A stretch of 64,000 bases of DNA from Sipunculus nudus (Eukaryota > Annelida > Sipuncula > Golfingiida > Sipunculidae), in NCBI GenBank assembly GCA_026874595.1, contig CM049307.1, forward strand, positions 91,203,830-91,267,829, written 5' to 3'. Each line of letters opens with the position of its first letter. Position 1 is the stretch's first letter. Below are positions 1 through 53,749 of this stretch, piece after piece. A program made the position numbers and the translations under genes. Below the pieces are notes generated by a model. That model made no database searches and had not been told where the DNA came from. It was given only the letters and a program-made list of their open reading frames with translations.

Positions 1-3000
1 CACATGGTCTTCGCAAGAACATTAACTGAATTATAGATTATTCTATGTTTGTAAACAGGAATGAGTAATTGATTAGTGATTGAACAGTGTTTCTACATAT
101 AAAATCATATAAAATCCTAGCGCCCAATTTTGAGGTTCTTACTTTTGGTTATTACATGGAATTATTTAACATTAATAATTTACAGTAATACCTTTGGTAC
201 CTTATTATACATATATATGTATCTGAGTGCATGTATGTTTAAATTTGTGTGTATGTACATAATCACTTTCGCATTCCTTTTATCTTATCAAATATTTACT
301 TATATATAACACGAACATACTCCCTTTGAAGTCCAGCACAGAAATCATACGGGTTGGACACGCAGTACCCTGACATTAAATACTTATCGCGAACCTGTTA
401 ATAAACTATTTTTTTTTCTCTCTGTCTCATTCTCACACACGCGCGCACACACATATTCATTTCTTCTTTTCCGGTGTACACATTTTTTTCAGTTCCAAAT
501 AATCCTGACATGGAATACCTGATGTCGGTTACTTTTTTATTGTTTCTCGTGACTTAAAGAGACATTATAGAAAACGTATATATGTTTACAACACTGAAAT
601 GTTATTTCTTATTTTTTTCTGAATATACTTTATAAGTTGAATGCTACATGGCACCAATATTAATTTGAGTCGCGTTAATAGTCGGACACGCGTTTGGAAA
701 TTGTGCGCCCATTGTGTGCAACACTGCTTCCTCGGTCTACCTAGATGCAAGAATATGATTTTTTTTTACTGTTGACGTCAAAGATTAATTTTAATCCCCT
801 CCTCTTCCGATGTATTACAAACATTACGTAGGCCGCTACAGGCGAAATGTACGTCGCATGATGTATTTTTTACGCCGTTAAGGGATTAACAGACGCGCAC
901 ATACACACACCATACGCACACCGACACACACGTAGATACTGTCCTTTCTCTAAATTTTATTCATGTGTATACGTCTACATTCTTTCTGTCTGTTATACAT
1001 ATATGCATATTCACATGTTAAATAGTAATTTCCTCTACGCTACTGTTCCGTACAAATCATTATATAATTGTTTCATTATTGGTATGTTAATATAAAATGG
1101 CCCCGACGTGTTAGTCCTGAGGGAGTCCTGTAACAGTTTAAATTGCCCAGTAGGATAGCCACTGCAATCATCATTTACTCTTATATTGTTTGACGCGCCC
1201 ACAAAATCATAATACAGTCGGAGTGTTCCACTGAGTAACAAATTATTTCGTAAAAATTCCAATGAGGCGAGACTATTTAAACCCAGACGCAAACACAATC
1301 ATTCCCCAAATATACATTTTACGGCATTTCGTAAAACATCGGTCCTTTGAAACTCTCTAAGGCTGATGTCAATAGCCTAATACCAAATATGCTTTTATTT
1401 TGGTGCAGTTATATACATGTTCCTTTGATGAACGCGGACAGAGAACGTGGAGAAATTTCTTCTGAATCAATTAACTGAAAATATTAAACATATAAATGGT
1501 TTGTCTGATAGCAAGTTGGTTTGTCTAATGGTTAGTTTAATTAAAAACAAGTAAATGTTGAGGTTATCTGGGTCAGTTTAATCTGATTTAATGATATTTT
1601 GTAGACAAAAATCAAGTTGACAAACGGTTAATTCCGATTTCAAATTAGACACAGGAGGGCGGTAACAATTGAACAAGATATAAATACATGTAATGGGTCT
1701 CTAGTTCTATCTGGGAGAATATTTCATCTTCTAAATAAGCTCTATTGGCGCCATGAATACTTGTAACGTTATATTAAATATCCCATGGTGCACTTGCCGC
1801 CAGATCAATCGTTTTCTTAAACGTTCGTTCCGGTACTTAGATTTTAACAGCGGCTCACATAGTTCACAGTTTATAGAGCAGACGCCATCTTTATTTCTCC
1901 CTTCGGTTTTAATATTAACTTCAGTACATTAGGAAATGCCAGGCTTAAAGATAAGCGGGACTGGAATTCAATAAAACGAAGAAAATAAATCCAAGCACTA
2001 AAAAAACAAGTGGTAGCCTCTTTTTACCCGAGTTTAAACTTCCTTACATGCACGTTTGTTCTTACTAGCTTATGATAAATTAGAAGTTTTAATCTAAGAA
2101 CGGTTTCGTAGGTTATCGTAATATGAAGATTTAATAAAAAAATATAATAATGTAATGTTTCCTAAAAATAAAATTCCAACTGGCTCAGATTGATCACATA
2201 TATGCTCATACTGTCGTCATATATCAAATTGTCGTTTTTTTTGTTGGTACACATACAATTTTCAGGGATATCCATTAATTTTAGTTTTTTTTTGTCATTT
2301 TACAATACACTCTGGTTTTCCTTAATGATATTTTTTATTTCTCTTCGGTTAGATGAAGGTATAACCACTTTTAAATTTCGTACTTTCTTAACACTGTGTT
2401 TTTTTGCAGATTAACGAAAGCCAAACGTGCACTGATAACTCGGTCGGTAAAATTAAAAGAATGAGTCATTAGTAGTGAAACGATAAGTACATTTTAAAGA
2501 ACGGGTTCAGTTGAATGATTAAAATCGGCATTATGACAATGATATATGCTGTTATGTGGAGCATGATTTCAATTTGATAATTTAAAATAAACTTTTATTC
2601 AATGAATTTAAACGGTAAAAAAAGATAAATTTCGTGGCATATAGGTCAACTTGTAATATTTTTTCACTTTAATGTTAAGTTTAGATTTTACAGACGATAC
2701 AACTTACAAATGCCATCTAAATAGGTCGGAACTGCTATTATCAACTGCGCTGACAAATACACACACACTCTCTTATTCATTTAGGATTCTAATATTTAAG
2801 CAAGCTCTTGATTGACATGTAACTACCAGTCAAGTATTTATTATTTCCATAAAAGCGTTAACGTAACTGACGTCGTCCTAACAGCATAGTTATATCGCAT
2901 AAATAATTTGAATCCATATTATGCAAATTATCCCTTAATTATGTGAACCGTATGATATATGAAGTTTTTAAATATTTTGCTTAAATATGTGGTTATTGGA

Positions 3001-4076
3001 TATCATTGGGTAAGAAAAACTGGGTATAGTTTTATTTGAAAACGTGTACTGGGTTCCATCAGTTTCAGATACTTTTCAAACTTTATAGATGTCAATTTAA
3101 TGTTAATATTATACTCAATACCATGTAAATTTGCGGCGATATTCTAAGAAAATTCATAAACAGGTATCGAATGATAAAGGGAAACAATATTACTTATTAT
3201 TTTGAAGATAGGATGAAATACTAATATACTAAGATACTTCCGATAACTAATAGCATTTTTGAATGATTGATTTTAATGTGGGCGATCATCTGCTAAAACA
3301 AGAAGTTTTTCATTAAAACGTCTTGGCTATATTTACACAAATTTAATTAAGCTGATCTTACATTCAGAATAAATGAATTTTAGAATAATAAAGGTTAACT
3401 TTAGATCGTAAACAAATCCATCGTGGTGAAGACAAAACAAAGGGTTTCGATAAACAATTCTTGTTATTTGTGTAGCACTAGTATTAAACTATATATCACA
3501 CTACAGTTGATCTAATTATATTTAATTAATATGACATCGACTCAAATAGGTCCAGGTACTTGAGGAACAAACAAAGCTGTTGAATGTGTTTGTGCTTTTC
3601 TTATGAAACCAGTTATCTCTCGGCAGCATCTAATTACAATTTATAATTAACTTTTATAAAATACATCTGTTTACTTTTTGTAATCTATATATGTACTTTA
3701 GGACCAACAAATCAGGTCATTTGCACAATTTAGTTCACAATATTTTAATCCTACCTATTAAGCACACAGTGCATGAAATCGTAAATAATAATTAATGATG
3801 GACATTGGACATAGAAGTTAACTTTACTGAGTGTAACGAATCAACATATTATTTCTTGTGTTGTTTGAACATTTTGTTCATTCTTTTTAGTGTTCTTGGT
3901 CTTTCATATTGTATATCTGATTAAAATAAATATTCATGGATAACTGTATGTACCATCATATAACTGGTTATGAAAAAAATATACCAATACTATACTTGTC
4001 AAGTATTAGAAAAAAAGACTTCATGATATGAATGATCGAAGAAAAACAAGATATTTTAGGGACTAACATTACCCTT
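1..4076. other. Intergenic, no gene recognised
   Basis: AT-rich non-coding DNA. Only short open frames without recognisable protein character are present on either strand. There are small CA/GT-rich patches near 430-450, 898-930 and 2760-2775. I see no RNA gene, splice-consistent exon series or transposon terminus. Confidence 0.6.
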
Positions 4077-4095: not shown

Positions 4096-5047
4096 TTATT
4101 CATGGCTTAGCTTCGCGAACGAAGATCATGAATTGGTCGTCCATGTCGGCTGGAGGCACACTGGTGACCGATTTGGCGGAATCTGCAGGTACGATCGCAG
4201 TGGCGTCAATTTGCACGGTTTATCCTCCTCTCTCGTTTTACCCCGAGGGTGACCTTGTTGTTGTTTTCAGAGGAAACCGGCCTGTTGATGGTGTGCCGCT
4301 ACGTGTCACGGTTTGCACCAAATGTAGACCACAGGCGGTGGTCGATGTGACAGGCACCGAGGTACTTGTTGGGACATTCCTTGAAGCATTTCTTTGGTGC
4401 CCCTCTGTCGCGGTGGCCGGTGGAAAGTTCACAACAAGTGATAATCTTTGGCAGGCGATGATCTTCTAACCTAGAAACGTGCCTTGCCAAGCGTAGTAGT
4501 GATTTCAACAGCCTGGATTCAATGCTGATGACTTGTGTCTGTTCGAGGACCTGGGCGTTTGTAATGAAGTCACTCCAGTCGAAGCTCAAGATGATGCGGC
4601 GGCAGCGCTGATGGAAACTCAAAAAGTCGTAGGTGGCTGCAGCTGCGAATGTAGAAGGGTTGTGAGTATGACAGCCCTGTAGACGCTGATCTCCGTGATC
4701 TTCTTGAGGTGCTTGTTGTTCCATACACATTCTACCAAATGCACTGTACGCCTCCCCCAATGTGTTTTCCCATTTCCTTGTCAACCCGGGCATCAAATTA
4801 GATGATGCATCCAAGGTACGTGAATTACACTACTGATTTGAACTCTGTTTCGCCAATGGTAATAAGGGGAGCGCGGTATTTTTCCCCGAGGTGCAGGTTG
4901 ATGGATGACCTCTGTCTTTTTCAGACTGATTTCTACTCCGAAGAGCTGGACAGCCTCTGAAAAGAAGGATGTGATGCACTGCAAGGCTCATTCAGTGTGG
5001 GCCACAAAGACAGCATCATCAGCGAAGAGGAGAATAACGATTTCCTC
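4096..5047 (-). mobile_element. 5'-truncated non-LTR retrotransposon (LINE), dead
   Basis: On the minus strand, near 5032-4995, a reverse-transcriptase motif FADDAVFVAHTE is visible (the F/YADD box holds catalytic aspartates). An in-frame TGA follows directly. Downstream come LQCITSFFSEAVQLFG, then VEISLKKTEVIHQPAPRG, and then the 3' domain with FHQRCRRIILSFDWSDFI, RLARHVSRLEDHRLPK and GHRDRGAPKKC. These segments are typical of the endonuclease/reverse-transcriptase LINEs often annotated as craniofacial development protein 2-like. Only the region from the RT active site to near the 3' end remains, in several frames, so it is a pseudogene. The fragment is 952 bp, 5'-truncated at the right end, and flanked by 19-bp direct repeats. 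Confidence 0.85.
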
Positions 5048-15880: not shown

Positions 15881-16012
15881 TAGGGCTGGTTATCGGTCCG
15901 CCTCATCCGGTACAATACGTATTGCGATACAGTTAATTCGATACCGATACGTATTGACGATACGCTTCATTTCTCTTTGTATATCATTTCTTAATAAAAA
16001 GCTCTGTTTCTT

Positions 16013-16015
<3 letters not shown>

Positions 16016-16073
<58 letters not shown>
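16016..16073. repeat. (TA)n microsatellite left of palindrome
   Basis: Pure TA tract. A similar tract at 16,300-16,366 lies on the other side of the palindrome. Confidence 0.95.
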
Positions 16074-16078
<5 letters not shown>

Positions 16079-16136
16079 GTGTTACCCTCCGATGTAAAGT
16101 GCTCTATGGCCTACAAGCTAGGCCAGAGCGGTATAG
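16074..16136. repeat. Unpaired element segment with two small hairpins
   Basis: Sequence between the left TA tract and the left palindrome arm. It contains GGCCTA-CAAGC-TAGGCC and AGAGC-GGTATA-GCTCT hairpins and has no mirror copy on the right. It may be the longer end of one of two head-to-head element copies. Confidence 0.6.
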
Positions 16137-16160
16137 CTCTGAAGAAAAACAACACTGTTA

Positions 16161-16208
16161 ATTCACAACAGACTGTTTCACGGGATGCGACCCGATCATC
16201 AGGTGAAT
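16161..16208 (-). ncRNA. Hammerhead-ribozyme-like motif, minus strand mirror copy
   Basis: Exact mirror of the plus-strand motif because of the palindrome: CTGATGA at 16,202-16,196 and GAAA at 16,179-16,176 when read on the minus strand. Stem I is ATTCAC/GTGAAT. Confidence 0.5.
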
Positions 16209-16227
16209 GTGGTTAGAATCTAACCAC

Positions 16228-16275
16228 ATTCACCTGATGATCGGGTCGCATCCCGTGAAACAGTCTGTTGTGAAT
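16228..16275 (+). ncRNA. Hammerhead-ribozyme-like motif (type I), plus strand
   Basis: Stem I 5' strand ATTCAC (16,228-16,233); core CTGATGA (16,234-16,240); stem II hairpin CGGG-TCGCAT-CCCG with a U-U mismatch at its base (16,241-16,256); GAAA (16,257-16,260) with its last A starting a short stem III (ACA/TGT, loop GTC); then U17; stem I 3' strand GTGAAT (16,270-16,275), which pairs all six bases with ATTCAC. The order and core match type I hammerheads of Penelope-like elements and metazoan retrozymes. The closing mismatch of stem II and the tiny stem III make activity uncertain. Predicted cleavage follows 16,269. Confidence 0.55.
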
Positions 16276-16299
16276 TAACAGTGTTGTTTTTCTTCAGAG

Positions 16300-16366
<67 letters not shown>
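16300..16366. repeat. (TA)n microsatellite right of palindrome
   Basis: Pure TA tract immediately after the right palindrome arm. Confidence 0.95.
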
Positions 16367-16368
<2 letters not shown>

Positions 16369-16619
16369 ATTAATATACCACATATTCCGTATGGTATGCA
16401 CCCAAGCTGAGCAGCTTAAGCTTGATATTAAATACATACCAAGACCAGTTGATTTTAATTATCAAAATCTATCTAATTAAAACTACCGAAATCTCGATCT
16501 TCTCGACCCCCCCCCCCCCCGCACAAACAGTTTAATTGCATTTGATGAGAAAGATCATAGGCTGTTTTTTTTGTGTCATATAATTACACAGTTTTTTTTT
16601 CTGTGAATATGAGTCCATT

Positions 16620-27300: not shown

Positions 27301-27600
27301 ACAGGCACTCTTTTCAGCACTAAAATAGCTTAGAAACCGTAAGCACGTTGAGTATGCGCGATATACCAGTTAGAAAAGAACAAGGTAATGAACTCCACCG
27401 CTACGCGGGCAAGACAACTTTTTTTCACAAGTCCGAATTCCGGAGAATTATCCGCTTCACAAGCATGATCGCGCGCCTTTTTGTTGAAAACTAATTTATT
27501 CACAAGATTAAACTTAAAAAATAAACGTTCTTCACATTGACACGGTATTTTGTCATGTATACATTTACTAGTTGCGGAAGCTGACGTCACCCCGGGCTGA
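27301..27600. repeat. Large inverted repeat (foldback), left arm
   Basis: Near-identical reverse complement of 27,806-28,140, separated by a spacer of about 205 bp. Both arms contain the same open frame with segments ARDHACEADNSPEFGLVKKS and VAVEFITLFFSNWYIAHTQR: minus strand here, plus strand in the other arm. I do not recognise the peptide. The sequence is most simply two head-to-head copies of a repeat or a MITE-like foldback. Confidence 0.85.
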
Positions 27601-27805
27601 ATGGATTTCCCCCTGAACTGGCCGCTGTGATTGGCTGCATGGTACCAGTCGTTTTCTACATCTCTTTGAGGCGCACTATTCAAACAGCTGTCAAATGGTC
27701 AATGAAGTTGAAAATCAGTGGGCATGGCATGCAAACACAACCAGGACCATTATGTCACTTGTTTTGTATACATTAACGTCTGTTCTATAACCATAACATA
27801 CATTA

Positions 27806-28140
27806 AGCCCGGGATGACGCAACTTCCGCAACTAGTAAATGTATACATGACAAATGACCGTGTCAAAGCTGGAATAAACGTGCTGGAATTCGCGGTTAGT
27901 GTGAAGAACTTTTATTTTTGGAAGTTTAATCTTGTGTATAATTTAGTTTTCAACAAAAAGGCGCGCGATCATGCTTGTGAAGCGGATAATTCTCCGGAAT
28001 TCGGACTTGTGAAAAAAAGTTGTCTTGCCCGCGTAGCGGTGGAGTTCATTACCTTGTTCTTTTCTAACTGGTATATCGCGCATACTCAACGTGCTTTCGG
28101 TTTCAAAGCCATTTTAGTGCTGGAAATGAGTGCCTGTGTT
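27806..28140. repeat. Large inverted repeat (foldback), right arm
   Basis: Partner of 27,301-27,600. It has an insertion of about 45 bases near 27,863-27,900 that the left arm lacks; elsewhere the arms differ at few positions. The conserved frame continues through it on the plus strand (27,718-28,176), but with no start or splice context that supports a gene. Confidence 0.85.
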
Positions 28141-29038: not shown

Positions 29039-29119
29039 TTAGAGATATTTGTGTATGGGTCTGTTTGGATGGGTGTCTGTGGTGTTCGAGTAATCAACCG
29101 TTAATATTTATTAATATTA
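28181..29119. other. Upstream of OATP; TA/GA microsatellites
   Basis: A (TA)n tract (28,961-28,994) runs into (GA)n (28,996-29,034). The missing first exon of the transporter may lie here or further upstream, but I could not identify it. Confidence 0.5.
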
Positions 29120-29175
29120 ATGAGAAGGGCCAATCGTGCTCTTACAGTAATTCATTACCCTTGGTCTATTTGTAG

Positions 29176-29846
29176 ATCTCCTTGTAAGGCCGCGGAGACA
29201 GATGGGTGCCTAAATGTACAGGATGATGGTGACATAACCAGGGCAACGCCTCCACGGAAAAGTCTACGGGAACGGATCTTCACTCTCAATTTTTTTGTGG
29301 CTATCTCTGCCATCGTCAGTGTGATCATTACGGCCGAGGTGTCCGTGCGTTACTCTGTCCTTACAACGTTAGAAAGGAGATTCACGTTCAGCACCACTCA
29401 AAATGGCACCCTGATATCCGCTTACGACCTCGGGCATATCGCCCTTTTGATTGTCATAGCCATATATGGGCATAAGATGCATAAACCTCTTGGGTGTCTC
29501 TTAGGCGGCTTTCTCCAGATTATCTCCTGTGTTCTTTGGGCTATGCCGCATTTTATGTATGGCCCGGGAACCACCGCTCATCTCCAAGAGCGCGGAGTAA
29601 ACCAGACTTTGGAAGAGTCTCTTGGAATGTGTATCATAACGCCCCCAGATGCCAGCGGTTACGGTGGAAACATCACAATTGAACACGAGACTACAATACA
29701 GGTCACCGAGTACCAGAAAGCCGTTACTTTCTGGATTATGTTAATTTCGCAATGTTTCGGTGGGGCAGCAATGGCTCCTTTCCTTACACTAACTCTGACA
29801 TACATTGACGAAAACACGGACCCGCAAACTTCAGCCGTTTTAGTAG
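29176..29846 (+). CDS. OATP exon 1 of those identified (TM1-TM4)
   Basis: 671 bp, acceptor TTTGTAG and donor G|GTGAGA. It encodes a cytoplasmic N-terminus with a basic patch ([10 protein letters not shown]), TM1 ([19 protein letters not shown]), the classic [12 protein letters not shown] loop, TM2 ([16 protein letters not shown]), [11 protein letters not shown]3 ([19 protein letters not shown]), the first large extracellular loop with NQT and NIT N-glycosylation sequons, and TM4 ([20 protein letters not shown]). The frame is open back to 29,105 and includes an ATG at 29,120, so that start cannot be excluded. The good acceptor and OATP homology beginning only after it favour an upstream exon. 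Confidence 0.95.
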
Positions 29847-30022
29847 GTGAGACTTGTTTAAATCTAAAAGATATAACATATGTTCACCAAGCTTCAGATA
29901 TTTGTCAATGCGAAAGAACAAACGTACCAAACTTGCTTCAGGGTCTAACCATTTAATATGCAGATTGCCTGAATGTAATAATTATAATGAAAAATAACTT
30001 TTTTTATAATATATATGATTTA

Positions 30023-30080
<58 letters not shown>

Positions 30081-33000
30081 AATAATCGAGATAGTGTAAG
30101 CCTAGATTTCGGAAAGTCGATTTGAATTAAAAAATTGAAATTTTTCAATAAGACTGAATATTTTGAATTTTTTAGGTGTGTCTCTAGCTCTTGGCGTCTT
30201 TGGGTTCTTGATTGGCTTTCTTACCGGTGCTTGGTCGACATCGATGTTTGTTGATCTGTCGTGTGAGTCGAATCTTGTTCCTATCAAATGTTTCACCATG
30301 TATATTGAGCAAAACAAAATAGAGAATGAGTAACAAAAATACAATTAATTAAATGATCAAATTTTCGTAGAAGTTAACCCCTTAAAAGTCATATCCTTGC
30401 CCGAGGTTCGACTTAACGGATTTCCGGCTTGAAGACCACTGTTCTTACAATAACAAAGAAAAAATCATGTTTGGTCTTTATATAAAACAATTTATTTTTA
30501 TGTGTTTTCTGGAGAGTCACACATGCTTAATTTTATGTTTTAATTTGGCATTGAAAAACTTTGACCAATGGCTGATATTTTTGTAATTTCAGTGGATGCT
30601 GACACTTTTTTTGCGGATCAGAATTGATATTAACGGTCCAAGTTTTTAACAGAGGCCCTTCGTAGACATATATGTGTTATGCATATTCTTTGGGATCATA
30701 TTTATACCTTGAAGTATAAACTAAAAGAGCATGACTATTAGTAAAGATGAAATTTATATTTTAGCAACTGATAAATGCATTTCATCAAGACAATAGGCAG
30801 TGTCATCTGAAAGAACATTTATCTATGTATAGAGTTCGTTATTGATATCAATAACTTCTGTCAATAACCTGAAGCCTTGAGAATGTTTAGGTAACTAGGT
30901 AAATACAAGTACACAGATGTTAAACTACAAACGTATTTTTTGTATTTTTTTCAATCCTAAAAGTAATGATATGCTGACGATTTTAGGATAGTAAAACTTG
31001 AATAAATTTTTAAATAATTTTATATAATAAAAAAATATATTAAAATTAAAGCAATTTTCAGTCATTGAATTTTTTGTTAGAGTCAACTGTTTATCCGACA
31101 TTTCTTTTCGTTATTATACATTAATGGTTGTTACTGATATTATTTTTCTTTTTTTAGCTGTTACTTTGACACAGAAGGATCCTGGTTGGGTTGGGGCCTG
31201 GTGGTTCGGATCCTTGATCCTGGCCGCCATTTTGATCCCTTTAAGTATCCCGATCATGTTCTTTCCGAGAAGGATCAGAAAAACACCAACCAGACTGACG
31301 CAGAGTAACGGTACAGTTGACGACGGTAAGGACACCATCTCTGCTGCTCAACTTCCGGAGAAGGAAGAAGATGATAAAAACACGACCAAAGGTGAGAGAG
31401 ATTATGCTGAAAACCGGAAGCAAATGTTAGACTTAATCACATTAACGCGGACTCGAGTACAGTCGTCGAAAAACCAGGACGACATTTTATGAGAATATTT
31501 ATATTAAAAAATCCCAAAACGTTGATTTTACATTTTGATCCATGATTCATAGTTAAAAAGATCTACTCAAATGTCTTATTTGCATGATTTATGGGATTTC
31601 TTGCTTTCTCTGGGTAAATAATAATGAATTGTAAAGGGAATTCCTGTTAAATAGGGTATTTAATTCGCCACTGTGACAGTGGTATGACTTTTTTATCTAC
31701 ATGAATCTGCTGTCATTTGCAAAACTCTGATTTACTCCAAGATGTCCTTTTTGGCCGTGTCTGGGTTACGACCGGTGGCTATTTCGTCGCCTTCCACCGC
31801 CCCCCTTCCACCAAATGTTGTTAACACGTTGATACACACAAAACGGACAGACTGCAGTGTGGAACCACCGCGTTTGGCCTTATAGAAGGTCGGAGGAATT
31901 ATCTTTACTATATAGCCGTCATTTTTCAGAATATGCCCCTGACATACATGGGGCGATTTGTCGCTCGACACGTTGCAGCAGAAGGAATGAATCACCGTTC
32001 CTTCAGAGGTCTTTTTTACTCGAAAAGAATCTCTTCTGTTTTGGCAAACTACTTTTTTTCAAATGTCAAATTTTAAAATTAAAATTTGTCACATTTCAAG
32101 GAAAGAAACTTCTGTTAACATTCCCCGTGTGCTTACCTAGAAAATATATTATTTCTTATTCCGTAAAGTCCTTACTACAAAACTCCAATGTGTATGTAAT
32201 TTGCCTTGAAATATTTCTTATTCAACACACACGAACGGACTACATAGTCATCTTCACTATGCATGGTGTATTTAGGAGCCCCGGTACATTGGGCGGAGGG
32301 GAGGGGGGTTCAGATTTGGGGTACTCTTGTTAGTTCGAGTCTGTGCCGTGTGGGATTAGGTTTTTTTTCTGTGACTTGTCCCCCGACATCAGGTTCAGGC
32401 CCGGGGTAGAAAAATGCTTATAGTGACCGATCATGTTATCATGTTGTGGAATAATTTCGCAAAAACCATGCATGTTTTTATTATATAACTTTATTATTAG
32501 AAGGAAGGGATACAGTATAAATGCTATGCAGGATACTTTCATCCTCACACACATATTTGTGATATATAAAGTTAAAAAGGCAGAAAAATGTTTAATTCTT
32601 AGGATTATGTTGGTAGCTTGTTGTTTTTATCATATTTTTGCAGAAAAGGTTGCACAAGATGTGTCTGTATGTGGACTGTTCACAATGACAGAATATTATA
32701 TATGCACACGTATGAACTATTTGCCAAGAAGGTTTTTCCTTCAGCACCCCCTCCCCCATCTCATCGGTAAATCCTGGCTGTGCCAAGGATTAATAGTGAT
32801 TATATCCAATACAGAGGAGTGATATTTGGTGCAGATTAAGACGCATGATGAAATGCGCATTGCGCATTCCTTTTAGAAAGCTGTATGTATCTGTATGAAG
32901 CACGTGTTATTTTATTTTATCATAGACTCCTCTAAAGCAGAACCGACCGGTATGATAGCCCTGATGAGGAACTTGGTTTTCTGGGCCATCACTATAGCCA

Positions 33001-33967
33001 TGGCGCTGGTGTTCTTCGTCCCGGCTGGCCTCGTCACTTTTCTGCCCAAGTTCTTAGAAGTCCATTTCCTGCTCACACCATTGATGGCCAACATCATAAC
33101 AGGTGAGAAAATCATTACTAATTAGAATTCTTGTATTGTTTTTTTTTTGGCCAGGAGGGTATGCAGTCATCTCCGTTCGTGTGTGTGTTTGTGTTTGCAC
33201 AAAACAAACTGACGCAATCATCTCAAGCAATTTTCAAGACATTTTGTGAAACGGCCAGTGAAGACTCGATTAGATTTTAATTGTGGATCCAAAACATATT
33301 CAGGATTTAGGAACGTCATCAAACACGGGTTGGGGGAGTATTTCACAATAAGGAACCCCTACAAGGCGGAGGCTTCCATTCCTTAGATTACAGATTTCCA
33401 GTAAAAAAATTGGTATTATTTATATATTAGAACTATAAAACACTAATGTTGATAGTTTGTTTAATATAATATAATAAATATTTGATACAATGTAAGTAAA
33501 TTATCTAATACAAATATTTAGTTTCTGAGAGAAACGTATTTCACAGTTGACAGGTTTAAACATGTATTTCAGATGTAGGCGTCTATATTCGCATAGCGAT
33601 TTCAAGAAACCTGCCATGCTGTCGAACTTGAAATATGTTTGTTAGTTTGACTAAAAGTCAGTCACAAAATAAGCAGAGAACAAACGGAAACACAGAAAAA
33701 AATAACAGAAAAAGGATGCTTTGCACCACGGAGACTTTAGAAAGCTCCTCTCCTAAAAATCTTGACCCAACTATCAATATAGAAGTAACATTATCAATCC
33801 CTATAAGACTTCCCTCCTTTCCGACAGTGGGAGTAGGGGGTGGGGGGGGGGATTATCTAAAAATTGTCTCTTTTTAAAAATATATATATATTATATATTT
33901 ATGTCAGAGCCATTGATAATCGTACACCGACATTATTGATCTCTCCCTCTCTCTCTCACTCTCTCTC

Positions 33968-34035
<68 letters not shown>

Positions 34036-37000
34036 TATTTAGAAACCGCATCATTCCTAATAAAAAATTGGATTTTTCCAGCGTTTACCGGGGCACTGAC
34101 CATGGCTATCGGTACGTTCATAGGCGGTTATCTCACTTCCCGATATAATCTGGGCATGCGCGGAATGATACAGCTGTGTATGGTGGTATGGATTGTCGGC
34201 GTCTCCCTAATGTGTATTCTGGTCTTCATCGAGTGTCCACATCCGACCTTCAATGTAAATGTCGACGCCAACAAGTAGGTAGCTAATTCATCTTCTGGTA
34301 GCATTCCTTGCCTAAAAGAGAAACGTTACATTTAAACGAATCCAAAAGTGTGGGCCAACAAAGTGATCTGAAATATGAAATACTGAGGATTCATATGTTA
34401 TTAATCCTGAATAACTGCTAACTATCAAACCCATTGCTTGTCCAGGAGCAAAACATACAGTAAAATTGTTTGTAAAATTCAGCACTTTGTTATGTTTCGA
34501 TAAAATTGTCAAATGATAATGGAAACCTAGATAAATACAAATTTATTTAGATAAACAAGTAAAATCACTACATAACAAAGGAAATTGTTTGATTTTATCT
34601 TCTTGAAAGAAATGTCTAGGCGGCTGCAGCTCAAAATTGGTAAATTTCTATTGAAAATCAAAATAAAAATGTTTGATGCAGGGGTTTAAAATTGATGCGG
34701 GCGGTGCCTGAGAACTATACCTTTTATTTTTTGGCCTCAAAAATAATAAAAAAGAATAAAAACTTAATGTTGCAGAATCGTGAATTCTACAGCGAAATGT
34801 AACAAGGGCTGCTCGTGCGGTCAGGACTTCCTGCCCGTGTGTGGTGAGGATATGAGGATGTATTACTCCGCGTGTCAAGCCGGTTGTAGGGTCGCTATTA
34901 ATGAATCGGTAAGTGAACGACACGCAGGGTTTATACGAACGTACAGGTTGCCCCTTCTTTTGTATTTGTAAATATGAAACGTGCATTTATAAATCTGGAT
35001 TGGTAAAGTATTGAAAGTTAAAAATTGTTATTTGGGGAAGTAGATTATTAAATATCTGACTGACTCTGTTTACATATTAATGAACTGCAGGCAGTTTATA
35101 TAAAAAAAGCTTTTGAAGGGCCTCTGGGCTTGTTTGTCTACAATATTAACTAAAGAAAAAAAATAGGTGGTTGGTAGCATATTTACGATGAAACTTGAAA
35201 GTTGGCAGCATACGGAAGATGAAAGGTCACTAGTTTCACAACGCCCTTGCTGAATATGTTTGGATTATTTTTGCGTGCTCCCAAATTGTTATAAACACGT
35301 ATATATAAAAAAATACGAAGAACCAGTCTGTGTGCGGTAGGATCGACGTTTTCTGGTCTATTTTTTTATAAAAGTTTTAAGGTATTATCTCCACATATCG
35401 TCAGATATCGGAATAGGCCCCTTTATGGTATTTTATGATGATAAGGGTTTTTCTCGCATGATTTTCACCAATCTAGCGATAGAGATCAACAAAATACACG
35501 AGTTGGACGCCGGAAGTCGATTTTTAAGATCACTGGGTCGAAGAATTAAGTATTAGGACAATCTGGGCGTCAGACCAGCTCAGCCGCCTCATGTAAACCT
35601 GCTTGTAATTAACTATTTTTATTATTGTTAATATTTTATTTTTAAGTTTATTATTATTATTATAAATATAATTATTATTTGTATATGTTTTTGTTTTTTT
35701 ACATTTATTATCATTACTGTTATTATTATAACTATTATTATTATAAATATAATAATAATAATAATAATAATTATTATTATTATTATTAATATCATTATTA
35801 CTTTGTTTATTCTTTTTATTAATATTTTTGTTTTGTTTTTACTTTGTTTATTATTATTATTATGATAAAGATATCAGAAAGAGGTTCCTTTATTAAATTT
35901 GATAAATGTCTATATTTCTATAGCACTACAGTAACTGTACGTGTATACCTGGCCTTGACGGGGGACACGGCCGGGCTGTGGAGGGCTGGTGTGGAGAGGG
36001 CTGCACCGCAAACCTCGTCTGGTACAATGTCATCATGTTACCGACCATTATCATCCTGTACATGAGCGCCTCGCCCATGATGAGTATTATATTAAGGTCA
36101 GTACATCTGTATATGTAAAAGGAAATTTTAGAACTGCATAAACTTACAATGAAGCGTCCCCTTTGGTCATAAAATGTGAAGTATAGGTCCCACCTATACA
36201 GCTACTGTTGAACCTCTCCTAGTGGACACCTCCATAAAGTGGGCACCTATATATAGTGGACATTTATTTGACAGTCCCTATTGTATAACACTTGAAGGCC
36301 AAAGGACCAGGGTCATTAGATATAGAGGCCTTTTACTTATTATATTTAACTCTATTCCCAGATGATCTTGACTATGTACACACAGATAATTTTTATATTT
36401 ATGTATATTATGAATGATTTATGAATGAAAACATGATATTTACTTAATAAATGAATATGCTAGAATATTTTTTCGAACTTATCATATTGTGTAGATAAAC
36501 TTGATGAACCTGGGTGACTGATGAAATCAATCATTGACTAAACAGTGTTTTTAGCTCAGCTGACTGAAAGTCATTTTAACGATCACCCTTTGTCCTGCGT
36601 CCGTCTGTCCGTCTGTCCGTTAACCAGGCACAAATCGTAACCACAAGCCCTAGAATCTTTTTACTTGACATCCTGGGAAATCCATAAAAATCTTCTTAGA
36701 AATCTGAAATTAGGTCTCTGATACCCATATTCTTTGAGCTATGGGGCTCCGAAGTACCCCCCCCCCCCGAATAATCAAAATTTGATGCAGAAATTCTGAA
36801 GAACTAATGCATTGATCACCATGATTATTTGCATGAATATTGATAATGGAGTGTTTAATCAGTTTCTGCAGACTGGTGGCGCCACCTGTATTTTTTCGAT
36901 TTTTTACGATTTTTTTTCTCTTTTTTTGAGACTTTAAAAGATGCGGTCATCTGCTAACAGGGCACAAATCGTTACGACTGGACTTAGAATCTTCTATCTT

Positions 37001-39171
37001 GACATGCAGGGAGGCCAATGAAAAGTCTCTTTGGAAACTGAAATTAGGTCTCTGTTACCCATAACCTCTGATCTATGGGGCCCCGAATTGCCACCCATGA
37101 ATTATGGAAATTTTGTTACAAAAGCTCAAGTATCTGAACAACGATTGCATTGATCATCATGATTCCTTGCATGGTTATTAATCATGGAATGTTTCATCAG
37201 TTCCTGCAGTGTGGTGGCGCCACCTTTTCGATATTTACAATTTTTTTTCTCCATTTTTGGACTTCTTATGATGCGGTCATCTGTTAACAGGGCACAAATT
37301 GTAACAACTTAACCTAGGATTTTTTCTCTTGGCAGGCAGGGAGGCCCATGGAAAGTATCTTTTGAAACCTGAAATTAGGTCTCTGTTACCTATATTCTTT
37401 GAGCTATGTGGCTTCGAAGTACGCCCCAGTATCATGGAAAATTTGATACAAAAGCTCAGGTATCTGAACAACTGTTGCATTGATCACCATGATTCTTTTC
37501 AAAGATATTGATCATGGAATATTTAATCAGTTTCTGCAGCAGGTGGTACGATTTTTTTTCTCTATTTTTGAGACCTCTTAAGATGCACTCATCTGTTAAC
37601 ATGGCACAAATCGTTACAACTGGACCTACAGTCTTGTCTCTTGACATGCAGGGAGGCCCATGAAAAGTCTCCTTGGAAACCTGAAATTAGGTCTCTGTTA
37701 TCCATAACCTCTGAGGTAAGGGGCTCCGAAGAACCCCCCCCCCCCCATCCCAGAATAATTAAAAAACTTTTTACCAAAGCTCAAGTATCTGAACAACTTT
37801 TGCATTGATCACCATGAATTTTTTCATGCATATTCATAAAGAACTATTTCATCAGTTCCTGAAGACTGCAGGTGCAACCTGTTTTTTTTAGAATTTTTAT
37901 GCATTTTTTCTCAATTTTGTAGTTCAGCTGACTCTAATTTATCTGAGCTATAGTGGTCACTCTTTCTCGGTCGTCCGTCCGGCCATCTGGCTGTCCGGCC
38001 GTCTGTACGTTAACAGGGCACAAATCGTAACCACTGTACCTGGAATTTTCTTACTTGACATCAAGAGAGGTCCATGAAAAATCTCCTTGGAAACCTGAAA
38101 CAAGGTCTCTGTTACCCATATCCTTTGAGCTTTGGGGCTCCGAAGTACCCCTAAAAATAATACAAAATTTGATACAAAAGCTCAAATGTCTGAATAACTA
38201 CTGCATTTATCACCATGAATATGCGCATGAGCATTGATCATGGGGTGTTCTATCACTTCCTGCAGACTGGTGGTGTCAACTGTATTTTTTTTTCATTTTT
38301 TATGCTTTTTTTTAGACCTGCAATGAAACTATCAACTGTTAACATGGCACAAATCCTGTCCGTTGGACCTGGAATTTTCTAACTTGACATCAAAGGAGGT
38401 TCATGAATATATCTCTGTGGAAACCTGAAATTAGGTTTTTGTTACCCATATTCTCCGAGCTATGGGGCTCAGAAGTACCCCTCAGAATAATTAAAAATTT
38501 GACGTTAATAATATTTCAAATACATCTTAAACTACACTCTTTGTATTTCAAGTTCAGCTGAGCGTCATGGCCCATGGGCGACTTGTTTAAGTTTGTGACG
38601 GGAACAAAAGTGGGAATTTTTGAACTGCACATATCAAGAAATACAACTACATTTACACATTTTCAATTTGAATTGCACACATAGAGGTCAACTGCACACT
38701 AAAAGTATAACTAGAAGTGCAGTACCTAGAAGTATACTTACATGAAAACACGACTAATCAGGCCACACAAGGTTGTTTTTCAGGCATATGAATGTTTATG
38801 ACATCTCATATTTTTTTATTTGAAATGTACAGATAGTTGCCTTGCATTAAAACGCTTGTTTTAACATTCTTTTACAGGTGTATTCCTGATCTGAAATACA
38901 GGTCCATCGGCTTGGGGATAAGTAACGTATGTACAAGTTTATTCGGTGAGTGTATACATACAAATACGTTTTATGTCAGTCGTATGCCATTGTTACATTT
39001 CACAATGGATTTCAGAATAAGGACGGATTGATACAACTAGACTCGGTTACTTTGGTTATCATCAAATAATAACTCTTTAGTATTAACCTTATAATTATTT
39101 TATTTTCTATAATAAGTTCATGGTAAATGAAGTGGAAGAATGTAAAGATATTACAGAGCGGATTTTTATTT

Positions 39172-39206
<35 letters not shown>

Positions 39207-39232
39207 AATATATATATATATATGTATAAATA

Positions 39233-39298
<66 letters not shown>

Positions 39299-41364
39299 TA
39301 TATGCGCGTAAAATAAAGCGTGATTCCAGGTACCGATAGACCTAGCTCAGTGACAGCTCTTAGCACCAAATGAAATTAGTCAGTTTCGAGAGCTATAAAT
39401 CAGTAAATTAATTATATAATTTGCGCGAGGTGGCAGTACTTGTTCTTTGCGACACAGTGAGTGCAAGTTTAATGGCTCTGTCAGTAGGAGGAATTAAGTC
39501 TTAACCACTGCATCGACTGGGCCAGTCTAACGATAATCTAACTTTTTACAGCTTTCAACCATTACCTGATCTTCTTTTATTGTCCAACTTGTACTCTAAG
39601 ATCTTTTATGATAATTTTTCAGTAAATATTTCAATAAAAAAATAAATATTGTTATGGTACATGCAACAAAGCTTTATTGAGACTCCGGTTGAGAAAATAA
39701 AAAAACAATCCTGCCTTGAATTAAAAGGAATGTTGTTTTTCAAATGTTACATTACCCCCTTTAATCATAAATTAATGTAAAATGTACGACCAGATGGAAT
39801 ACCCTTAACAAACCTTGAAATATTCATAATTTTTCTTCACAGCTTCAAATAAAGCAGAATATATTATAATATTATAAGTAAATTGCCTGTCCAATTATAA
39901 TTTGATGATTTGGGCGTGGTCCAAAAAAGGGTTACTCCGCTTTAAACTTTGCCGATACGCATTCCTTGCCTCAAAACTCGTTCCCCCTAATAGGCCGTCG
40001 TCTGAACGCTGTCCTCGTTGATTGTTCCTTTTCGCATCCAAATTCCATATCGAAGCCTATTGAGTTTATTGCTCCCAGTTTCTCGAACCTGCTCATGGGG
40101 GCTGCCGCTTTGCGTAAAAACCGAGTGTTTCAAGTCGCATGTCGGAATATGGGTGTACCGCTGTTTATCTGAATTGTAGAAAAACTTGCTTTGTTTTGAA
40201 GCATTAGATAACATCAATAAAGCCCTTAAGCATTTTTAAAATTTAACCTATCAGTTATGTAAGACTTTTTTATGTTGTCGGTGGCGTCAATTTATTTTCA
40301 TGGATGGCCGAGATGATTAGCCGGGGGGTGGGGGGGGGCGGGGGGTTTGGGGGGGGGTGGGGGTGGTGGGCGTTGGGGGGGTGGGAGGTGTTAGCTCAGC
40401 TGACTTAAAGGCATCTCAGCTTAAGCGATCACTCTTTGTCCGTCATCCATTAAAAATCTCCGTGGAAATATGAAATTAGATCTCTGCCACCGATATCCTC
40501 TGAACTATGGGGCACAGAAATACCCAAGAATAAGAAAAAAAAAAAATGATTCTAAATCTCTAGTATCTAAACAACTAGTGCATTGATCACCATGATTTTT
40601 TGCATGCATATTCATCATTGATTGTTTCATCAGTTCCTGCAGAATGGTGGTGCCACCTTGATTTTTTTCTAAAAATTGTTTGCGCATTTTTTCTCTATTT
40701 TTTTAGACCTTCTAAGATGCTGTCGTCCGTGAACAGGTCATAATCGTTACCATTAAACCTAGAATCTCCTAACTCTACATCCAGGGGGGTCCGTGAAAAA
40801 TGTCTTTCGAAACTTGAAATAAGGTCTCTATAACCCAAATCTTCTGAGCTAAGGCCACAGAAGTACCCCCAGAATAATAAAAATGGATACAAACACTTCA
40901 GCATATGAATAACTAATGCAATGATCGTCCGTCCGGCCGGCCGTTTACAGGGCACAAATCGTAACCCGAAAGTGTAAAATCATAATCCTCTTTGACCTGG
41001 AAGATCCTAAAAATTTCTCATCAGGAACATGAAATTAGGTCACTGTGACCTATATTCTCCGAGTTACGGGGCATGTTTGAGCACTTTGGAAATACAAAAT
41101 ACACACATATTGCTAGATGGCTTGTTATAAAATTTGGTGTTCTTTTGATTCTTGATGAACTTAAGCTAATATACATGAATGATGATATCACCCACATTAT
41201 CTTCAGAAGTTGCCCGTGCAAGGACATATTGTCAGCATGTCATCGGCTGAGCGTCATGACCCATGGGTCACTTGTAATAAACTTCAATATTTCAAATATA
41301 GGTTTAAGGTTTTAGATTTAAGGTATTATGTTTACAGTATGGATTAATTCTAAACCCATTTTTA

Positions 41365-41422
<58 letters not shown>

Positions 41423-41839
41423 CTCTGAAAAGCAGGGAGATGACTACACTCACCATCCCCCCACCCCCTTGATAAAAGTATGGGGATATATACCGAACCC
41501 CACCCTTGTAGTGACGTCACTATTGATTATTTCATTATGTTGATTATCTCAGGTACGGTTCCAGCTCCTATTGTCTTTGGTTGGCTCATCGATCAAACCT
41601 GTCTTGCCATGACTCCACCTCGTGGGACATCACCGGCCCGATGTATAAGATACAACCAAGATATGTTCCGACTTGTCTTCCACGCTACCTGTATCAGCGT
41701 CATCGTGTTCGGGCTCGTCTTTTATGCGGTCCCTTGGGCGAAACTTGTACGAGAAGACAGCATTGAAAATAAAAGGCGCAAGGAACAAAAAGCATCGATG
41801 CCGGAAGAAGTGGCAATGGTGGATAACCCACGTACCTAG
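29176..41839 (+). CDS. Organic anion transporter (OATP/SLCO family), nine coding exons
   Basis: Plasma-membrane uptake carrier for amphipathic organic anions such as steroid conjugates, eicosanoids, bile-salt-like compounds and xenobiotics; substrates of this copy are unknown. The joined coding exons are 29176-29846, 30176-30262, 31158-31391, 32926-33102, 34082-34274, 34776-34908, 35924-36096, 38878-38945 and 41553-41839. All junctions are GT-AG and phases match, giving about 674 residues (family about 650-720). Seen in the product: TM1-TM4 in exon 1; signature [15 protein letters not shown] before TM6; a long TM7 segment; a Cys-rich Kazal-type extracellular loop ([18 protein letters not shown]); and [19 protein letters not shown] before TM12. 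The consensus Arg of the signature (DxRW) is Gly. The N-terminus is incomplete: exon 1 begins after a TTTGTAG acceptor in phase 2, or translation starts at the in-frame ATG at 29,120. Its 3' end is partly duplicated at 53,974. Confidence 0.95.
30176..30262 (+). CDS. OATP exon 2 (TM5)
   Basis: 87 bp between acceptor TTTTTTAG and donor T|GTGAGT. It encodes [19 protein letters not shown] and STSMFVDLS, the Gly-rich TM5. Phase is 1 at both ends, which fits exon 1 and exon 3. Confidence 0.92.
31158..31391 (+). CDS. OATP exon 3 (signature and TM6, cytoplasmic loop)
   Basis: 234 bp, acceptor CTTTTTTTAG and donor G|GTGAGA. It encodes [17 protein letters not shown]6 ([18 protein letters not shown]), RRIRKTP and a hydrophilic, acidic and Lys-rich loop ([10 protein letters not shown]). 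The family signature D-x-R-W-(I/V)-G-A-W-W-x-G is present except that Arg is Gly. Confidence 0.95.
31732..31995 (-). other. GC-richer open frame antisense in OATP intron 3, unrecognised
   Basis: An 87-codon minus-strand frame with balanced, protein-like composition (for example [20 protein letters not shown]) in a GC-richer patch of the intron. I do not recognise it. It may be a retrocopy or repeat fragment; nothing else supports a gene. Confidence 0.2.
32926..33102 (+). CDS. OATP exon 4 (TM7)
   Basis: 177 bp, acceptor TTTATCATAG and donor G|GTGAGA. It encodes [19 protein letters not shown], then the hydrophobic TM7 ([20 protein letters not shown]), PKFLEVHF and [11 protein letters not shown]. 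The segment 'PKFLE.HF' is the family's loop after TM7. Confidence 0.93.
34082..34274 (+). CDS. OATP exon 5 (TM8-TM9)
   Basis: 193 bp, acceptor GGATTTTTCCAG and donor AA|GTAGGT. It encodes [19 protein letters not shown] (TM8 with the Gly-rich motif), [10 protein letters not shown]9 ([19 protein letters not shown]) and the start of the large fifth extracellular loop. It lies just after a (CT)n(TA)n microsatellite. Confidence 0.92.
34776..34908 (+). CDS. OATP exon 6 (Kazal-type loop)
   Basis: 133 bp, acceptor TTGCAG and donor TCG|GTAAGT. Visible cysteines: [20 protein letters not shown], then [10 protein letters not shown]. This is the conserved OATP extracellular loop 5, whose Cys residues form disulfides needed for surface expression in characterised family members. 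Confidence 0.94.
35630..35880. repeat. (TTA/TAA)n-rich low-complexity tract in OATP intron 6
   Basis: Imperfect ATT/AAT trinucleotide repeats in long runs just upstream of exon 7. Confidence 0.85.
35924..36096 (+). CDS. OATP exon 7 (end of loop 5, TM10)
   Basis: 173 bp, acceptor TTTCTATAG and donor AG|GTCAGT. It encodes [30 protein letters not shown] and TM10 ([20 protein letters not shown]), ending ILR. It completes the Cys pattern of the Kazal-like loop. Confidence 0.93.
36202..36290. mobile_element. Possible pogo/Tigger-like terminal fragment
   Basis: The word ACTGTTGAACCTCTCCTAGTGGACACCT resembles CAGTTGAACCTC-type termini (split here: ACTGTTGAACC / TCTCCTAGTGG / ACACCT). Only one end is seen. 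Confidence 0.3.
36551..38590 (+). repeat. Dispersed repeat array in OATP intron 7
   Basis: Starts TTAGCTCAGCTGACTGAAAG followed by a CGTCCGTCTGTCCG stretch. About five tandem modules of 310-410 bp follow, each with GGCACAAATCGTAAC, 'cttggaaacctgaaattaggtctctgttacccata', 'gcattgatcaccatga' and 'tcagttcctgcagactggtggcgcc'. The end is CAGCTGAGCGTCATGGCCCATGGGC then GACTTGT. In this subfamily the palindrome position reads AGGTCTCTGTTACC, so the receptor-like site is lost. A non-autonomous Helitron-like element with a central tandem core is one possible identity (inference). Confidence 0.85.
38878..38945 (+). CDS. OATP exon 8 (TM11 start)
   Basis: 68 bp, acceptor CTTTTACAG and donor G|GTGAGT. It encodes [20 protein letters not shown] and LF, matching the family's 'LRCV....RS.ALG' segment leading into TM11. 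Phases fit exons 7 and 9. Confidence 0.92.
39173..39303. repeat. (TA)n microsatellite in OATP intron 8
   Basis: Long TA tract with TAAATA and TGTA interruptions. Confidence 0.95.
39304..39545 (+). repeat. Dispersed repeat adjacent to TA tract
   Basis: Shares AAAATAAAGCGTGATTCCA, CCAGCTCTTA-like words and 'gcatcgactgggccagtcta' with sequences near 56,560-56,755 and 61,138-61,230 plus 62,120-62,175. It has tRNA-like fragments (CTAGCTCAGTGAC) but no clear B box. Family not recognised. Confidence 0.55.
40321..40390 (+). repeat. G-rich tract with many G-runs (quadruplex-prone)
   Basis: About 70 bp of almost pure G interrupted by T and C, with at least six runs of four or more G. It lies in OATP intron 8 on the coding strand. 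Confidence 0.9.
40391..41275 (+). repeat. Dispersed repeat block in OATP intron 8
   Basis: Same family as 36,551-38,590: TTAGCTCAGCTGACTTAAAG at the start, GGCACAAATCGTAACC inside, GCTGAGCGTCATGACCCATG then GGTCACTTGT at the end. A perfect AGGTCACTGTGACCT palindrome is at 41,037-41,051. Confidence 0.85.
41368..41419. repeat. (TA)n microsatellite before last OATP exon
   Basis: Pure TA tract in OATP intron 8. Confidence 0.95.
41553..41839 (+). CDS. OATP exon 9, last coding exon (TM11 end, TM12, C-terminus)
   Basis: 287 bp including the TAG stop at 41,837-41,839; acceptor TTATCTCAG. It encodes [19 protein letters not shown] (the family's 'G.IPAPI.FG..ID..C' box), CIRYN, TM12 ([20 protein letters not shown]) and a charged cytoplasmic tail ([15 protein letters not shown]) ending DNPRT. 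The tail is not a strong class I PDZ motif. From about 41,612 on, the exon is also present as a broken copy at 53,974. Confidence 0.95.

Positions 41840-46307: not shown

Positions 46308-53749
<7,442 letters not shown>

Follow-up and report, generated by a model that had tools for sequence, protein, structure and literature searches.

The insertion mechanism of Penelope-like elements (PLEs) is a standing question in the field, as is the reason why so many of them have inverted ends of which only one bears a tail. In LINE-1 twin priming, a side path of that element, both target strands prime on the element RNA and two cDNAs covering different parts of it are joined to give an inversion. For the purified PLE PAc (Poseidon, from Anolis carolinensis), both strands are cut and extended, reverse transcription (RT) starts at two internal sites and AT-rich targets are preferred (PMC11167929, 2024). 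Its RT start lies at an AC-rich stem-loop 111-118 bp into the open reading frame (ORF), with a cut at 26, and in vitro there was neither a strand difference in RT start nor homology between start site and target (PMC11167929). In the bdelloid Adineta vaga, a 2013 report proposes self-priming for the Penelope elements Pen2a, Pen2 and Pen3a (PMC3846280).

Here we describe a locus of Sipunculus nudus that shares with the A. vaga elements inverted head-to-head pseudo-LTRs, junction palindromes, a tail on one inverted copy and short target duplications. It lies in the window, our term for the whole stretch of 64,000 nucleotides analysed, and is likely a short non-coding PLE insertion in which two cDNAs of the 5′ part of the transcript, primed from both ends of the target, were joined head to head. 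As claimed in an earlier note on this DNA, an 81-bp arm at 16137-16217 is the exact reverse complement of a second one at 16219-16299, with a single A (16218) separating them and a TA tract on either side. The arm pairing extends to 86 bp with a single mismatch at the 82nd pair, where G16136 on the plus strand (C on the minus strand) faces T16300. The features of the locus are as follows, with cuts and RT start sites as predicted.

16016-16073, no strand: left target flank, a (TA)29 tract
16074-16217, minus strand: left arm with tail, 5′ part of a PLE pseudo-LTR, beginning at RT start site 1 and stopping close to the RNA 5′ end; 16075-16217 matches L078:1184-1326 at 142/143
16075-16136, minus strand: tail of 62 nt between RT start sites 2 and 1, in one arm only
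16075-16086, minus strand: hairpin GGUA-ACAC-UACC with an A/C-only loop at the outer end of the tail, noticed after the fact
16136, minus strand: the one position among the first 86 pairs at which the arms disagree; the left arm, read in the RNA sense, has C opposite T16300
16161-16208, minus strand: hammerhead-like motif of the left arm, predicted cut 16167/16166, mirror of the plus-strand motif
16218-16220, no strand: head-to-head junction; TC at 16219-16220 is assignable to either arm (2-nt microhomology)
16219-16300, plus strand: right arm without tail, beginning at RT start site 2 (CAGAGT) and stopping close to the RNA 5′ end
16228-16275, plus strand: hammerhead-like motif of the right arm, predicted cut 16269/16270
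16301-16365, no strand: right target flank, a TA tract

The C at 16136 on the RNA-sense strand is probably a private change of this copy, as the PLE copy L078 has T at the corresponding position; an untemplated base was considered for this mismatch and discarded, since PLE copies carry T at the site. The long hairpin anticipated for a transcript of the palindrome was recovered by computation, RNA spanning both arms folding into a single hairpin of -157.7 kcal/mol. Rfam matches at the locus to MIR1861, mir-4818 and others lie below gathering scores and are caused by the perfect hairpin, and we do not take them as evidence of a microRNA. Among the 17 window ORFs of at least 120 aa, Pfam placed an OATP transporter alone above its curated cut-offs and recognised no PLE ORF. 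Elsewhere the window holds the exons of an OATP/SLCO transporter gene (29105-41836; Pfam PF03137), a large fold-back (27311-28126) with arms of 211 bp that are 96% complementary around a 394-bp spacer, a tandem repeat of 3.4 copies of a 330-bp unit (36619-37739), and about 920 bp between two long TA tracts (52265-53366) that are possibly another TA-tract insertion.

The CTGATGA, stem II hairpin, GAAA and 6-bp stem I that had been noted in each arm hold on reading the sequence. On the plus strand, stem I pairs ATTCAC (16228-16233) with GTGAAT (16270-16275) and is followed by the core CTGATGA (16234-16240), a 4-bp stem II (CGGG/CCCG) with the loop TCGCAT, GAA, and a 3-bp stem III (ACA-GTC-TGT) absent from the earlier note. 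U17 stands at 16269 with the predicted cut at 16269/16270, and the minus-strand copy is the mirror. A type I descriptor, composed after the match had been seen, picks out these two motifs and nothing else in the window, and has no match in 400 windows of 64 kb simulated by a Markov model; relaxed to omit stem III, it has 49 matches in 200 simulated windows, so the looser motif alone proves little. The stem II pair next to the hammerhead core, usually G-C, is U-U here; the same U-U motif occurs in the longer PLE copies compared, and was thus not acquired by the window copy alone. Recognition by the Rfam hammerhead covariance models did not follow, with no hammerhead match at gathering scores in the whole window and no hammerhead family at E ≤ 10 over 15901-16500 and 16205-16310, and the unconstrained fold favours other pairings. 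What each arm carries is a predicted, minimal type I hammerhead-like layout that Rfam does not recognise.

The context of the arms became apparent from longer copies, found with a query from locus L040 as the best 40 of 2401 first-look candidates, from which 30 loci were taken (L048-L077). These have a further stretch in common upstream of the arm, with a C-rich run, and some reach the end of an ORF. In one of them, L071, the C-rich pseudo-LTR part next to the arm is internally duplicated (about 1420-1520 of the copy). The element in L078 is arranged in tandem: the end of one ORF copy (3-593) precedes two pseudo-LTR copies (1184-1326 and 4116-4258) that stand around further ORF pieces (1444-2547 and 2508-3515), and the tail-bearing arm of the window is identical to each of these pseudo-LTRs at 142 of 143 positions (99.3%). 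The first ORF piece contains a YRDDG motif, which we take to be that of a Penelope reverse transcriptase, and the second contains KHYIGCTEGDFKTRYNNHKQSF (a KHYIGCTEG... / HYIGCTEG segment) and Cys motifs, presumably of a Penelope-type endonuclease. Pfam found neither a reverse transcriptase nor an endonuclease domain in these pieces; the reverse transcriptase-like ORF has an NCBIfam retron reverse transcriptase match at E = 0.0046, far below cut-off, and a PHROG polymerase match at E = 0.014, and a solved-structure search with it gave nothing useful, while GIY-YIG had no match in Pfam, PHROGs or NCBIfam. Judged by the near-identity to L078, each arm derives from the 5′ part of a pseudo-LTR belonging to a tandem PLE, whose putative reverse transcriptase and endonuclease are assigned from these motifs.

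Other traits of PLEs accompany the tandem pseudo-LTRs. Inverted head-to-head pseudo-LTRs occur as 45 palindromes and in 11 of the 30 longer loci, the optional tail at one end is present as the 62-nt extension of one arm of the window copy and as one tail end in each of the 45 palindromes, and the pseudo-LTR contains the predicted type I layout. The earlier note had read the locus as hammerhead-bearing PLE ends, fused head to head within (TA)n as a retroelement end product, and had looked to genomic copies next to a Penelope reverse transcriptase; this reading stands, and the longer arm copies do adjoin an ORF of Penelope type by the motifs named above. Pattern scans of IMG/VR and prokaryote genomes and a search of phage records gave nothing, as expected for an animal element.

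The locus further resembles metazoan retrozymes in having a type I hammerhead in a short non-coding retroelement (PMC7229834). A retrozyme, meaning a small circular RNA that carries a type I hammerhead and is integrated by the machinery of a PLE, would suit the type I layout, the weak but present stem III, the stop codons in all three frames of the arm and its G+C of 47%, and retrozymes coexist with PLEs (PMC7229834). Set against this are the 99.3% identity of the arm to the pseudo-LTR of a tandem, ORF-bearing PLE and the position of the template 5′ end, which in 40/40 palindromes coincides with the putative (G)ATTC start or is at most 9 nt away from it, and does not fall at the hammerhead cut. 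Moreover, retrozymes are tandem monomers with circular RNA intermediates (PMC7229834), and no tandem monomer of 170-400 nt was seen in an unsystematic look at the fetched loci. The retrozyme alternative raised in the earlier note is accordingly highly improbable, the same arm lying in a tandem PLE.

To place the palindrome in its family, the window's own genome (1.43 Gb, 153 contigs) was searched. The first query returned 40 palindromes, including the window copy, as the best 40 of 1465 first-look candidates, with most or all of the structure matched at 93-100% identity; the other 39 are loci L009-L047. A second query with the tail left out again gave 40 palindromes, the best 40 of 1031 candidates, 35 of them known and five new (L099-L103, in which the end types, the L102 duplication and the mirrored variant were read by eye). 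A one-off fusion could no longer be upheld once the genome search had yielded the first 40 palindromes. All these copies are the best-scoring ones, such that single-ended and older forms are under-sampled and the counts are not genome totals.

The outer ends of these palindromes follow one pattern. In 40/40 copies of the first set (window and L009-L047), one side ends at site 1 with the tail, reading (mostly GAA)GGTAGTG..., and the other at CAGAGT(T), reading ...TCAGAGT; the five new palindromes likewise have one tail end and one tail-less end. Every palindrome sampled thus has one end at RT start site 1, with the 62-nt tail, and the other at site 2 (45/45). Among the 30 longer-element loci, the inverted arm lies upstream in 11, and the end types can be told in ten of these (L055, L058, L060, L063, L064, L068, L069, L071, L072 and L076), where they differ in 10/10, the tail end of L063 being itself damaged; in L048, one arm stops before site 2. 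No inverted arm was found within the 1.5 kb upstream covered in the remaining 19 loci, which may have their 5′ ends further out or be single-ended. L019 holds a longer one-armed copy with no partner arm seen. In the copies seen, the palindromes and longer loci together argue strongly for a rule of one start site per strand. In L019 and L024, two insertions of the palindrome family lie side by side.

A target duplication can be read where the flanks are not pure TA. Nine copies have an exact 14-bp duplication (L022, L038, L039, L040, L044, L045, L046, L047 and L102, the last by eye), that of L047 being 14 or 13 bp depending on whether one T is counted as element. Other copies with impure flanks deviate from 14 bp (L015, 8; L021, 6; L034, 13; L035, 15), and L011 has a TA match only, offset by 5 nt; by eye, L011, L015 and L021 are compatible with 14 bp given one substitution. 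No duplication was found in L027, owing to its repeated left end. In the rest of the first 40 copies, including the window copy with its pure TA flank, the two flanks agree for longer than 14 bp in TA-type sequence, which masks the length of the duplication. The corresponding duplications in A. vaga measure 8-10 bp and are absent in some copies (PMC3846280).

The family also bears on whether the locus was made by the assembly. Assemblers can err at short perfect palindromes between microsatellites, which is the form of this locus, and a fold-back read or chimera is a rival explanation. Beyond the TA tracts, just two matches connect the flanks, 12 and 14 bp long and at chance level (E 0.047 and 0.16), and the same form recurs at 44 further loci, with 19 different centres in the first 40 copies and exact 14-bp duplications in nine, making an artefact exceedingly unlikely.

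The palindrome centres are informative in their own right. The 40 copies have 19 centre forms, two of which are mirror images of each other. Assuming a template RNA that starts at (G)ATTCTAACC, a microhomology of exactly 2 nt fits 24/40 junctions and one of 0-1 nt fits 5/40, while 11/40 contain 1-3 nt of filler. Away from the centre, four of the 40 copies have mirrored substitutions (L010 and L042, both 46T>A, L019 and L046), and 46A also occurs in both arms of L099, L100 and L102 by eye; four others have one-sided private changes (L012, L020, L033 and L041), none of them common to two copies. The scarcity of mirrored variants reflects how alike the copies are.

A palindrome made once and then moving as a unit, be it as a fold-back or MITE-like element or as a reverse-transcribed long-hairpin RNA, would account for the many copies of near-identical size and ends. 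It would not lead us to expect the number of centre forms or arm variants that are mirrored, and the same arm with the same two end types is also found in the longer copies; we regard it as very doubtful. Varying centres together with mirrored variants imply that the arms of a copy share one kind of template and that the palindrome was not copied as a unit, and the best reading of these sequences is that each palindrome was made anew.

Self-priming, in which the 3′ end of one cDNA or antisense RNA turns back on the strand and primes a copy of it, would also yield identical arms with varying centres. It is how the head-to-head palindromes at inverted pseudo-LTR junctions of bdelloid Penelope are read in PMC3846280, and a hairpin turn could make the 9/40 centres that have at least 3 unpaired bases. 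The other 31/40 have fewer than 3, too few for a simple hairpin turn, and fold-back does not predict the fixed site-2 end of the second arm in 45/45 palindromes. In addition, the short arm of L058 ends within the hammerhead and is fused to a long arm that has different sequence upstream. We therefore consider self-priming unlikely here. Two-ended priming is favoured over fold-back by outer ends that are fixed yet unlike each other, by the variation among centres and by the mirrored variants.

In a numbering that begins at the A of ATTCTAACC, the hammerhead has its C3 at 18 and its predicted cut after 53, and the motifs of site 2 and site 1 end at 88 and 150, respectively. In L048-L082, ATTCTAACC is preceded by C (GCTTC) in 40/41 occurrences, the sole exception being the palindrome centre of the L040 locus; these 5′-end counts hold a few repeats, as L048 overlaps L040 and L078-L082 overlap L062, L077, L066, L075 and L050. 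An extra G is present at 9/14 palindrome ends taken as unambiguous and absent at 5/14. This hints at a transcript starting at the A of ATTCTAACC within CTTCATTCT, which resembles the initiator motif of promoters, with the cap copied as one base. At the other end, the sequence of L078 continues past the tail (...CTACCTTCTACTCC...), such that a transcript would extend beyond both RT start sites. The left end of L027 has a repeated start (GAAGGTAGTGTTA/GAAGGTAG), and L011, L030 and L038 have GAATAGAA in place of the usual GAA, as if initiation had been repeated or had slipped.

Cleavage by the ribozyme is not needed for these insertions, as the palindromes extend through the hammerhead. In L040, one arm begins exactly at the predicted cut (L040:1118, GTGAATT) and is joined to a longer inverted arm; this one case is a single hint of a possible ribozyme-cleaved template.

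We propose the following course of events. The PLE would be transcribed from a start inside the pseudo-LTR (CTTC/ATTCTAACC) into a capped RNA with the hammerhead-like core at about +18 to +53, and the element's enzyme would make a staggered cut in an AT-rich target, the stagger later becoming the 14-bp duplication. Both target 3′ ends would then prime reverse transcription, one at RNA site 1 (...CUACCUUC/UA, about +150) and the other at site 2 (CAGAGU/UAUA, about +88), with TA/TATA pairing likely helping. Both cDNAs would read through the hammerhead, still uncleaved, as far as the capped 5′ end or close to it, with the cap itself in some cases copied as a single additional base, and the ends of the cDNAs would be joined, mostly via 2-nt microhomology and sometimes with 1-3 nt of filler, before gap filling gives the palindrome. 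While the identity of the arms, their fixed and differing ends, the varying centres, the 14-bp duplications of informative copies and some mirrored variants are read from the copies themselves, we infer the enzymes, the order of steps and the capping, and either one RNA or two may have served as template.

The two-ended course resembles LINE-1 twin priming in that both target strands prime and two cDNAs are joined. Unlike in LINE-1, the start sites are fixed, the RNA part copied in the shorter arm is contained entirely in that of the longer, and each arm reaches the RNA 5′ end or its vicinity. With PAc, the family has in common a hammerhead near the RNA 5′ part, two internal RT starts that define an optional tail, an AT-rich target, the cutting and extension of both target strands (as proposed here) and an A/C-rich hairpin at a start site. 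This hairpin, GGUA-ACAC-UACC, spans 81-92 nt past the predicted hammerhead cut, and 12-mer hairpins of the kind start at 59 of 127,976 window positions on both strands. The outer end of the tail, and thus site 1, is 92 nt past the predicted cut, or 95 nt in copies with the common GAA start, versus 85-92 nt in PAc (111-118 minus 26). The tail itself measures 62 nt here, versus 30-40 nt in PAc (PMC11167929) and 31 nt in PMC3846280. In contrast to PAc, the start sites here can pair with the target through UA/UAUA, the hammerhead is located upstream of the ORF pieces instead of spanning an ORF start, the two sites are on opposite strands in the copies and insertions of the 5′ piece only are numerous. 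The palindromes reported at pseudo-LTR 5′ ends of A. vaga are 18 and 38 bp long, whereas here the palindrome makes up most of the insertion, and the many copies allow junctions to be compared (PMC3846280). Among the open-licence PMC papers listed in our literature searches, we found none describing pseudo-LTR pairs that stand alone, head to head, and have junctions of this kind.

Many palindromes with differing centres turn one odd locus into evidence on how the element inserts, and make this PLE family a natural record of many separate insertions. We further suggest, as a somewhat probable generalization, that PLEs integrate symmetrically, unlike LINE-type target-primed reverse transcription: with a 14-bp stagger, usually one fixed site per strand, cDNAs running to the capped 5′ end, annealing over about 2 nt and fill-in, and no separate priming of the second strand. 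Solo pairs would then arise when both sites lie on the 5′ pseudo-LTR, and full elements whose 5′ pseudo-LTR is inverted when one of the sites is on a downstream pseudo-LTR. The 14-bp stagger, one start site per strand, the cap-derived base and the 2-nt joining are testable predictions.

Two of the longer copies, L053 and L061 (G000:C6, about 59,964,100-59,967,300), stand head to head about 3 kb apart by coordinates; one has a site-2 end and the other a tail end, and they are possibly a further discordant pair.
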